This document shows, in pieces, positions 17,520 through 30,340 of a stretch of DNA of 32,263 bases (position 1 is its first letter; each line of letters opens with the position of its first letter). Origin of the DNA: a virus; the IMG/VR virus record IMGVR_UViG_3300009103_000105, positions 1 through 32,263 of that record; one strand, given 5' to 3'. The notes under the pieces are model-generated. The model did not search any database. It saw nothing but the letters and a program-made list of their open reading frames with translations, and was not told the origin of the DNA. The position numbers were made by a program, and so were the translations under genes.

Positions 17520-17687
17520 TCACTTAATCAAACCCTTAGACTTTAAAACTAAAGCCTCACCCCTATCACAATAAACATAAGGAACAGCTAAACGCAAAAC
17601 ACGCTTCATATCATGAAACGTCCGAACATTACGCCAGTCTATCTCATACTTGCCCAAATCTCCAGATATGTCAACATCAACACTCAT
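17520..17687 (-). CDS. 55 aa protein coupled to the HTH regulator
   Basis: ATG at 17687 to TGA at 17520; MSVDVDISGDLGKYEIDWRN then VRTFHDMKRVLRLAVPYVYC. The start overlaps the stop of the upstream regulator as ATGA. It is the third gene of a recombinase-regulator unit whose base composition on this strand is GC-richer than its neighbours. No family recognised; it could be a partner of the regulator. Confidence 0.6.
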   Translation of the reverse strand: MSVDVDISGDLGKYEIDWRNVRTFHDMKRVLRLAVPYVYCDRGEALVLKSKGLIK

Positions 17688-17872
17688 CTGACCAATATCC
17701 GCAACTCAAGACCCAACAAAACACACATACGCTCCAATATCTCAATAGAGGGATTACTCTTGCCCTGCTCTATCAAAGACAAATAAGACTGACTAATCCC
17801 AACACGATCAGCTAACTCATACTGCTTGATCCTACGACTACGCCTGACCTCACGCAAAACACCGTAATTCAT
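17684..17872 (-). CDS. Cro/C1-type (XRE) helix-turn-helix regulator
   Basis: 62 aa, one HTH domain: LREVRRSRRIKQYELADRVG, recognition helix SQSYLSLIEQGKS, then PSIEILERMCVLLGLEL. Overlaps the recombinase stop by 4 nt, so the two are made together. It may control its own operon or the divergent region at 18.55-19.17 kb, including the 11-bp repeats. Confidence 0.9.
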   Translation of the reverse strand: MNYGVLREVRRSRRIKQYELADRVGISQSYLSLIEQGKSNPSIEILERMCVLLGLELRILVR

Positions 17873-18525
17873 AACCCACGAATTAATTTTACTATACGAC
17901 TAACTGACTGTGGACGAAAAATACATCCAGTGGCAGTCGTAATACCCATAGAATTTAACTTCCCACAAATCTCACTGTAATTTAAACCCTTGTCCAAATA
18001 CAAACTAACAAACTCCATCGCAACCCGATTACGGGACAACGACATACGCCTGCGAGACGCAGCACCCTTCAACCGAGCAGAATAAGTTAAATTAGAAGGA
18101 GTACCCATCTTCTCCCCCCTAGCCTTCTTAGCTCGTAAAGCATCACAAGTACGCTCACTGATCTTCTTGGCCTCCTGCTGGGCCATAGCCGCCATAACAT
18201 GAATAGTGAACTCATTAGCACCAGGAATGTCACAAGCAACAAAACGAATCCCAGAATCCATAATCATAGAAGTAAAAGATACATTCCGAGATAAACGGTC
18301 CAACTTCGCTATCAATAAAGTACAACCACCCTCAGAACAAGCAGACAAAGCATAACCCAACTGCTCTCGATTATTATTGCGACCACTCTCAACCTCAGTG
18401 TACTCAGATAAAATAGTGTCACCAACACCACAATAACGAGAAACTATCTCCCGCTGTGACTCCAAACCCAAACCAGATTCACCCTGGCCAGAAGTGGAAA
18501 CTCGATAATAAGCTATATATTCCAT
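17869..18525 (-). CDS. Serine recombinase (resolvase/invertase family)
   Basis: 218 aa from the ATG at 18525 (MEYIAYYRVSTSGQGESG). The nucleophile is Ser10 in YRVST, followed by LIAKLDRLSRN and the E-helix region AAMAQQEAKKISERTCDALR; the C-terminal part (about 150-218) has a basic HTH (NYSEICGKLNSMGITTATG). The size fits resolvases and invertases, not large serine integrases. Upstream starts at 18546 (ATG) and 18552 (GTG) are possible, but the ATG at 18546 lies inside a TATGTTTG promoter-like box, so the shorter form is preferred. Target sites might be the repeats at 18703-18794; no invertible segment was found. Confidence 0.9.
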   Translation of the reverse strand: MEYIAYYRVSTSGQGESGLGLESQREIVSRYCGVGDTILSEYTEVESGRNNNREQLGYALSACSEGGCTLLIAKLDRLSRNVSFTSMIMDSGIRFVACDIPGANEFTIHVMAAMAQQEAKKISERTCDALRAKKARGEKMGTPSNLTYSARLKGAASRRRMSLSRNRVAMEFVSLYLDKGLNYSEICGKLNSMGITTATGCIFRPQSVSRIVKLIRGL

Positions 18526-18539
18526 ATCATTTGTTTTGA

Positions 18540-18547
18540 CAAACATA
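18540..18547 (-). promoter_or_regulatory. -7 box (TATGTTTG) of the recombinase unit
   Basis: Minus-strand TATGTTTG, 14 nt before the ATG at 18525. Fits TAnnTTTG and argues against the upstream starts. -33 region is poly-T. Confidence 0.4.
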
Positions 18548-18702
18548 ATCACTTTTTTCGTAAAAAAAAAGAAAATATTACTATAGCAAATATTAATACC
18601 GATTCTGCGGGGCGAAAATAATAATCAATACAAAAGGAAACACCAAAACAAACCAAAACGAAAAACTAAAATAAATACCCCGCTTTTTTGACATTTTTAA
18701 CT

Positions 18703-29208: not shown

Positions 29209-29385
29209 TGGAGAAAAGTAAACCTAAAAATACCCAAAAGAGGGTACATCTTAACGCTGTGGAGACAAAGCAACGCTTACAGAGCCACAGCAGTAGCTTA
29301 TATGCAAAGAGAAGGGCTTAAACAAGTTGAACACGCTAACGGAACAAACTACTTTTTAAACGAACTAAAGGAGGCAATGTTATGA
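29206..29385 (+). CDS. Small basic hypothetical protein
   Basis: 59 aa (MWRKVNLKIPKRGYILTLWR), with a strong SD leader and ATGA overlap to the next gene. Its end codons AAG GAG GCA ATG carry the SD of the next gene. Unknown. Confidence 0.55.
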   Translation: MWRKVNLKIPKRGYILTLWRQSNAYRATAVAYMQREGLKQVEHANGTNYFLNELKEAML

Positions 29386-29588: not shown

Positions 29589-30029
29589 ATGAAATTTACA
29601 ACCGGAGCCACAGTAAGCGTATGTGAATCGTATATTAACGATGAATGTACCCGAAAAACACAAACAAGCCCTATAGCAGCGGTGTTTCAAGAACCTAGCG
29701 ACACAGGTGAGCTTGTTGGAATAGTTTACAAAAGCAAAACCCTCGACTTTGTGCCACAAGATGTCCTTAAGGTTGTTGAGGTGGATTTATTTGAACACCC
29801 AGAACTAATACCAGGATTCATTATGGCTGTTCTCGATACTTGGGACAGCGAAGCAGACCAATACAAAGAACTACAAAGGTTGGTAGGCGAATTAGAACAA
29901 CTAGGATACACCTTTGACTATTACCTAGATGCAGAGCCACATAACCTTAGAAAAATAACCGACAAAGAAGAATGGGAAAACACCTTATGCAGAAACGGAA
30001 AGCCGATTTCTGAATGTAGGTGTTGCTAA
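29589..30029 (+). CDS. Two-part hypothetical phage protein
   Basis: 146 aa with AAGGAGGAGG before the ATG. Residues 1-65 are a small beta domain (FTTGATVSVCESYINDECTR; IVYKSKTLDFVPQDVLKVVE). From about 70 a helical part follows: HPELIPGFIMAVLDTWDSEA, LVGELEQLGYTFDYYLDAEP. The end CRNGKPISECRCC has four Cys. The two parts look like a fusion of independent units. The stop is directly followed by the attC-like half-site, so the C-terminus may have been changed by insertion of the cassette. Confidence 0.65.
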   Translation: MKFTTGATVSVCESYINDECTRKTQTSPIAAVFQEPSDTGELVGIVYKSKTLDFVPQDVLKVVEVDLFEHPELIPGFIMAVLDTWDSEADQYKELQRLVGELEQLGYTFDYYLDAEPHNLRKITDKEEWENTLCRNGKPISECRCC

Positions 30030-30080
30030 CGGTTAGGAACGAACTATGCACTATACAAATTGTTGTGTGTAGTGCGGATT
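30028..30080 (+). mobile_element. attC-like site, left boundary of a cassette-like unit
   Basis: CTAACGGTTAGGAACGAACT then a 10-bp hairpin GCACTATACA/TGTGTAGTGC (30048-30057/30066-30075, one G-T) with an 8-nt loop. AGGAACGAA and the TATAC..TTGTT part recur in the right-hand site. The sequence GTTGTGTGTAGTGC (30062-30075) is the inverted partner of GCATTACACACAAC (30275-30288). The left half of a full site is missing here. Confidence 0.5.
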
Positions 30081-30104
30081 ATTAACGAATAAAATTTAAT
30101 TAAG

Positions 30105-30275
30105 ATGGAAAAATTTAAAGTAAAAATAACAATAGTAGCAGAAGTTAGCAGTGATGAATATGATAAAATAGAAACAATTATTGATGAACTTGGTGCTGAA
30201 AGTAATTATGAAATACCAAGTACAGATTGTGTAAAAGTTCATAATACTGAATGGATAGATACAGAATTGGAATAG
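30105..30275 (+). CDS. 56 aa protein in a cassette-like unit
   Basis: MEKFKVKITIVAEVSSDEYD, KIETIIDELGAESNYEIPST, DCVKVHNTEWIDTELE. Beta strand, helix, beta pattern (ferredoxin-like half) and acidic end. The only gene between the two attC-like sites; codon use is very A/T-rich with none of the leader types of the neighbours (leader AATTTAATTAAG). This fits a recently acquired cassette. Function unknown. Confidence 0.65.
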   Translation: MEKFKVKITIVAEVSSDEYDKIETIIDELGAESNYEIPSTDCVKVHNTEWIDTELE

Positions 30276-30340
30276 CATTACACACAACGCCTGTATATGA
30301 GTCGTGAGGAACGAATGACTGCATATACTTTGTTATAAAA
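30275..30340 (+). mobile_element. attC-like site, right boundary of the cassette-like unit
   Basis: Folds as a nearly palindromic hairpin: ACAA/TTGT (30284-30287/30330-30333), an internal loop, GTATATG/CATATAC (30293-30299/30322-30328), a bulged G at 30321, AGTC/GACT (30300-30303/30317-30320) and a 13-nt loop with AGGAACGAA. Outer AAC/GTT pairs, central unpaired spacer and an extrahelical base are features of integron attC sites. The R-box does not match the classical consensus fully. Confidence 0.5.

Follow-up and report, generated by a model that had tools for sequence, protein, structure and literature searches.

Organization of the cassette locus

The DNA stretch that was analyzed (hereafter, the window), a 32,263-base virus record, encodes a terminase, a portal protein, and a major head protein of the phage type, the last of which had matches to the crAss-type and SU10-type capsid families. 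The tRNA search of the window found none, and no family was matched in its Rfam search. A serine recombinase of the invertase/resolvase type was the sole recombinase recognized among the window proteins scanned; its gene (17869-18552, minus strand) adjoins a small helix-turn-helix-like ORF (17684-17872). No tyrosine recombinase was evident among the window ORFs, part of which were scanned, and the arrangement that defines a complete integron, namely, intI and attI beside an array, was not found in the window.

Near the right end of the window lies a compact unit (Table 1) in which a G|TT point with an R' arm, a 42-nt leader, a 56-aa gene, an R'' arm, an attC-like hairpin, and a second G|TT point follow one another. 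The stop codon of the gene overlaps the R'' arm, so that the unit has the build of a cassette, with a short gene, a small leader, and a gene end near attC. The 56-aa protein had no relatives in any search, and its structure prediction, a weak single-sequence model (pLDDT 66), suggests a strand-helix-strand fold.

Table 1. Positions of the cassette elements in the window and of the recombinase genes without the I2 domain in Saprospiraceae loci.
Feature	Position	Strand	Basis or remark
Left attC remnant	30024..30068	+	R'' TGCTAAC, loop AGGAACGAA, type-A 3' arm, R' GTTGTGT; 5' arm missing
R' arm and leader, GTTGTGTGTAGTGCGGATTATTAAC...AATTAAG, then ATG	30062..30104	+	Common to seven cassettes with seven unrelated genes
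Gene cassette, 270 bp	30063..30332	+	Between two G|TT points; arm complementarity, cassette-level pairing in relatives
56-aa gene, cassette cargo	30105..30275	+	ORF; no relatives in any search
R'' arm, GCATTACACACAAC	30275..30288	+	Partner of R' arm 30062-30075
Right attC-like site, complete, type B	30282..30338	+	Model R2 match; family covariation
I2-less recombinase genes	L119:7298-8392, L161:4928-6079; also L156, L168, L172, L173, L174, L176, L183		

The gene is bounded by inverted 14-bp copies, as an earlier note on this DNA had stated: GTTGTGTGTAGTGC (30062-30075) and GCATTACACACAAC (30275-30288) are complementary at 13 of 14 positions, the remaining position forming a G-T pair, and R' at the start of the unit is thus complementary to R'' at its end, as is expected of a cassette. 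On the plus strand, this pair had the top score among approximately 20,400 GTT/AAC pairs tested; in a blind whole-window search, an equal score was reached in 32 of 200 shuffles, and the inverted pair alone is therefore no proof. The chance of such a pair occurring at the sole AAC adjoining the modeled hairpin was estimated at approximately 1e-5. When the ends were joined as in an excised circle (GCATTACACACAAC...GTTGTGTGTAGTGC), folding gave a continuous outer stem (z = -5.2).

The right site consists of an 11-pair stem, GTATATG-AGTC (30293-30303) / GACT-g-CATATAC (30317-30328), with spacers of 4 and 3 nt and a G|TT at 30332-30334, and it has the form that characterizes attC, an imperfect palindrome R''-L''-loop-L'-R' with an unpaired spacer. 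The AAC/GTT ends, the unpaired spacer, and the bulged G, which was placed at 30321, were confirmed. Relative to the consensus RYYYAAC/GTTRRRY, AAC and GTT were exact, with 6 of 7 positions matched by ACACAAC and GTTGTGT and 5 of 7 by GTTATAA. The bulged G lies on the 3' arm of the gene strand, which is opposite to the canonical attC polarity; bulges on either arm occurred in the relatives of the site. Folded alone, the right hairpin had a stability near that of shuffles on the two strands (z = -0.9 and -1.4).

The two flanking sites are related stem-loops, both containing AGGAACGAA (30035-30043 and 30307-30315) and TATAC..TTGTT, as had been noticed from the letters. The R'' box TGCTAAC of the left one overlaps the stop codon of the upstream gene.

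Family of related sites

A pattern derived from the part common to both window sites matched ten IMG/VR contigs, in which two site types were seen, type A (AACGCCCCTTGTATGGTGGCGTTGTGAGGAACGAACTATGCACTATACAAATTGTT) and type B (AACGAATTGTATATGAGGCGTGAGGAACGAATGACTGCATATACGCTGTT), whereas a broader pattern yielded 79 viral stretches and 13 matches in bacterial genomes, mostly Saprospiraceae MAGs together with Polaribacter and another Flavobacteriaceae genome. Matches resembling chance were removed by eye ahead of model building. It should be noted that the loop GAGGAACGAA was the search key, and the fact that it is constant among the collected sites is no evidence; the next sites in the arrays had other loops. 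The resulting home-made covariance model, R2, comprised 70 sites and excluded the window. Across 71 distinct sites (window included), 90.8% of the stem cells were paired, compared with at most 55% for a slid partner, and 200 double-sided changes were counted against 62 in shuffles; the structure was derived from the alignment on which it was tested and hence favors itself, and the contrast is large nonetheless. The attC-like stem is selected for pairing.

The attC covariance search that the earlier note had proposed was run with R2, and the right site (30282-30338) was the only significant match in the window (52.9 bits, E = 8.1e-9). The left site scored 11.8 bits (E = 3), below significance, as a half-site should, and its 3' half was nearly identical to complete type-A sites in five other phage contigs (L016, L020, L021, L023, and L024). 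The left site thus appears to be, as was proposed, a half-site, namely, the 3' half of another attC type with its 5' arm deleted. A weak R2 match at 29334-29385 (16.5 bits, E = 0.32) lies inside a gene and was taken as chance. A hammerhead-like reading of TGAGGA..GAA was dropped; the flanking arms pair with each other, unlike those of that ribozyme.

The same hairpins were also sought around other Bacteroidota genes, as had been recommended, and turned up in dozens of contigs from IMG/VR, as well as in Saprospiraceae genomes and the isolated Polaribacter phage P12002L; one pattern search was enough to bring out this single attC family in dozens of viral contigs. R2 sites numbered 25 in the viral record of L017 (71 kb) and 11 in that of L019 (388 kb). 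Among 30 such viral records, some short ones of which could be mis-sorted bacterial contigs, 11 had a terminase match, the 388-kb record included, and 28 were without an IntI-like match. Phage P12002L had five sites (58.8, 46.4, 39.2, 30.8, and 26.9 bits), two of which flank one methyltransferase gene, with the inner one located between two methyltransferase genes. Further single-gene, cassette-like arm pairs were observed on the minus strand of the same phage (L127, 39242-39518 and 40552-40764), outside the methyltransferase interval. In another locus (L124:2886-2957), an attC-like site of 33.4 bits was directly followed by GTGTGTGCC... and a domain-V-like sequence, present twice; we take the sequence after the site to resemble a group II intron inserted at attC.

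Cassette-level pairing, arrays, and shared shells

Integron gene cassettes are swappable units best known for spreading antibiotic-resistance genes. Both complementary arms in an integron array belong to one cassette and thus lie one gene apart. This was the pattern found in the relatives: 27 of 60 arms after a site had a partner 165-755 nt downstream, versus 2 of 58 in the control direction, and 9 of 58 arms before a site had one upstream, versus 1 of 60 in the control, while the arms of one site never paired with each other (0/73). Known class 1 integron cassettes from plasmids exhibited the same kind of arm pairing across the gene. A chain search in the relatives gave 52 runs of 2-6 cassettes compared with 2 in shuffles, many runs being counted twice since the motif reads on both strands. 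Cassettes like that of the window, often in rows, were present in dozens of other viral sequences; units interchangeable within arrays were seen in these relatives, the window itself holding only one cassette.

These counts bear on the question of whether the hairpins serve only as ordinary terminators or processing signals between phage genes and play no part in recombination. Their position between genes and downstream of stop codons would suit such a function, and attC sites may themselves terminate transcription weakly (Qi et al. 2023, PMC9892861). No T run follows the stem, however, and the arms pair one gene apart and never within a site, which argues that the hairpins organize cassettes; we therefore consider a terminator role alone highly improbable. 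Hairpins occurring everywhere as ordinary terminators, which the earlier note had named as grounds for abandoning the cassette, were accordingly not what was found.

The inverted 14-mers bounding the gene would also be consistent with a transposon-like unit, in which 14-bp terminal inverted repeats enclose a passenger gene and the transposase acts in trans. Yet the ends (AATT|GTTG on the left and CAAC|GCCT on the right) show no target duplication, the arms vary between cassettes whereas GTT/AAC are constant, each arm adjoins an attC-type hairpin, one hairpin is shared by neighboring cassettes, and further complete cassettes were found in arrays chained through such hairpins. The probability of a transposon-like unit is, in our estimation, minimal.

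Seven cassettes, namely, those of L017, L018, L021, L040, L063, L068, and the window, begin with a nearly equal sequence of 40-odd bases (GTTGTGTGTAGTGCGGATTATTAAC...ATG) and carry seven small proteins that are mutually dissimilar. Those of L040 and L063 also end in one common TACACACAAC arm, 233-236 nt on. These shared ends give the impression of a standard cassette shell within which the gene is exchanged, and such recurring shells with unrelated small genes constitute a natural collection of phage accessory genes.

IntI-like recombinases without the I2 domain in Saprospiraceae

Nine IntI-like recombinases of Saprospiraceae were without approximately 42 residues, the I2 domain included; the identity of Saprospiraceae tyrosine recombinases to IntI1 was approximately 35% (one alignment). 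In five of the loci (L161, L168, L172, L176, and L183), chained cassettes with attC-like hairpins lay directly downstream of the integrase gene and in the same direction, with six chains found compared with none in shuffles. A single cassette behind the I2-less integrase of L119 ends in a site of the phage subtype, which was also present in Saprospiraceae arrays (L106). Contigs ended on the downstream side in 26 of 28 cases (p = 3e-6), as repeats would cause. A canonical IntI exceeding the cut-off was found in only 1 of 80 Saprospiraceae genomes, the MAGs being incomplete.

The I2 domain is held to recognize the extrahelical bases of attC, and a paradox has been stated as to how selection could have produced this domain ahead of any attC sites, or attC sites ahead of the domain (PMC4792948). 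The putative I2-less integrases beside attC arrays bear on this paradox. It is conceivable, although we would sooner doubt it than assert it, that Bacteroidota phages share a large cassette pool built on a few standard shells and served by this I2-less type of host integrase, the missing domain being one considered necessary for folded attC sites. If so, phages would be a main vehicle of the cassette pool, and the host enzyme would be an extant intermediate form linking the Xer recombinases to IntI.

Probable origin and mobility of the window cassette

On the evidence above, the unit is very probably an integron gene cassette in a Bacteroidota phage genome, that is, a single gene with attC-type sites and no integrase beside it. 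The R2 match, the arm pairing, and the relatives support the original proposal of an integron-cassette unit with a complete right site and a left half-site. The points against are the lack of a recognized integrase in the window, the partial fit of the R boxes, the polarity of the bulge, and the absence of R2 matches to class 1 sites. A CALIN comprises at least two attC sites; since the window contains a truncated site besides a complete one, and no recognized integrase, the unit is a small CALIN-like remnant.

The left flank, consisting of the 3' half of another attC and the same leader as in L021, makes it most likely that the segment came in as part of a cassette array, from a host chromosome or another phage, and not as a lone circle. 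A scenario in which an integron integrase placed a lone circle into a secondary G|TT, the left half-site representing older phage sequence, would agree with the presence of only one complete attC, and integron integrases do use secondary sites; given the array-like junction of a type-A 3' half with the L021 leader, we regard this course of events as unlikely. For a segment that entered as an array piece, the left site would have lost its 5' arm at entry or later. Since it has no 5' arm, the left site probably no longer functions, which probably leaves the cassette fixed in place.

Upon excision, the two arms would meet in the circle and pair as the outer stem of a single attC hairpin, as the folding showed, and an integron-type recombinase of the host would then mobilize the cassette by cleaving the folded single strand at G|TT; the latter step is drawn from the known integron mechanism and from IntI1 assays of P12002L attC sites (Qi et al. 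2023). Capture by the host integrase, which had been suggested from the sequence, is plausible.

For a comparison with an empty site, relatives of the window ParB-like protein, of the downstream 63-aa protein, and of the terminase were sought, and none were found. The upstream 146-aa protein had relatives without such an attC-like site, which would fit a gain of the cassette segment if these are syntenic with the window. The earlier note would have given up the cassette if all related phages carried the gene with diverged flanks; this search was made, and it found no relative with the 56-aa gene.

Comparison with known systems

Class 1 cassettes (aadA2, aac(6')-Ib, and others) resemble that of the window in having a single gene with a short leader, R' and R'' arms that are complementary (over 8-12 bp in class 1), and a hairpin with an unpaired spacer and an extrahelical base. 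They differ from it in the polarity of the bulge, and the attC sequences have nothing in common, as no class 1 site was matched by R2; nor is there an intI1 near the window cassette. The chromosomal arrays of Saprospiraceae are likewise composed of attC-type cassettes in Bacteroidota, whereas their integrase lies directly upstream in the same direction, their cassettes are larger than that of the window, and the attC sites of L161-L183 mostly belong to another subtype than the phage one.

The closest known counterpart is phage P12002L, in which a CALIN with two methyltransferase genes has been described; two of its attC sites were tested with IntI1, and one recombined (Qi et al. 2023, PMC9892861). 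Both are Bacteroidota phages with attC-bounded genes of the same attC subtype and no integrase; the P12002L CALIN has several sites and a methyltransferase cargo, whereas the window carries a 56-aa gene with a single complete site and a truncated one. The earlier note had called integron cassettes in phage genomes rarely described; integrons and their parts were already described from 21 phage genomes (Qi et al. 2023, PMC9892861). Phage-borne cassettes and attC sites as such are already known, whereas the family found here is much larger than in that survey, and phages may act as carriers and spreaders of cassettes in Bacteroidota to an extent beyond that description.
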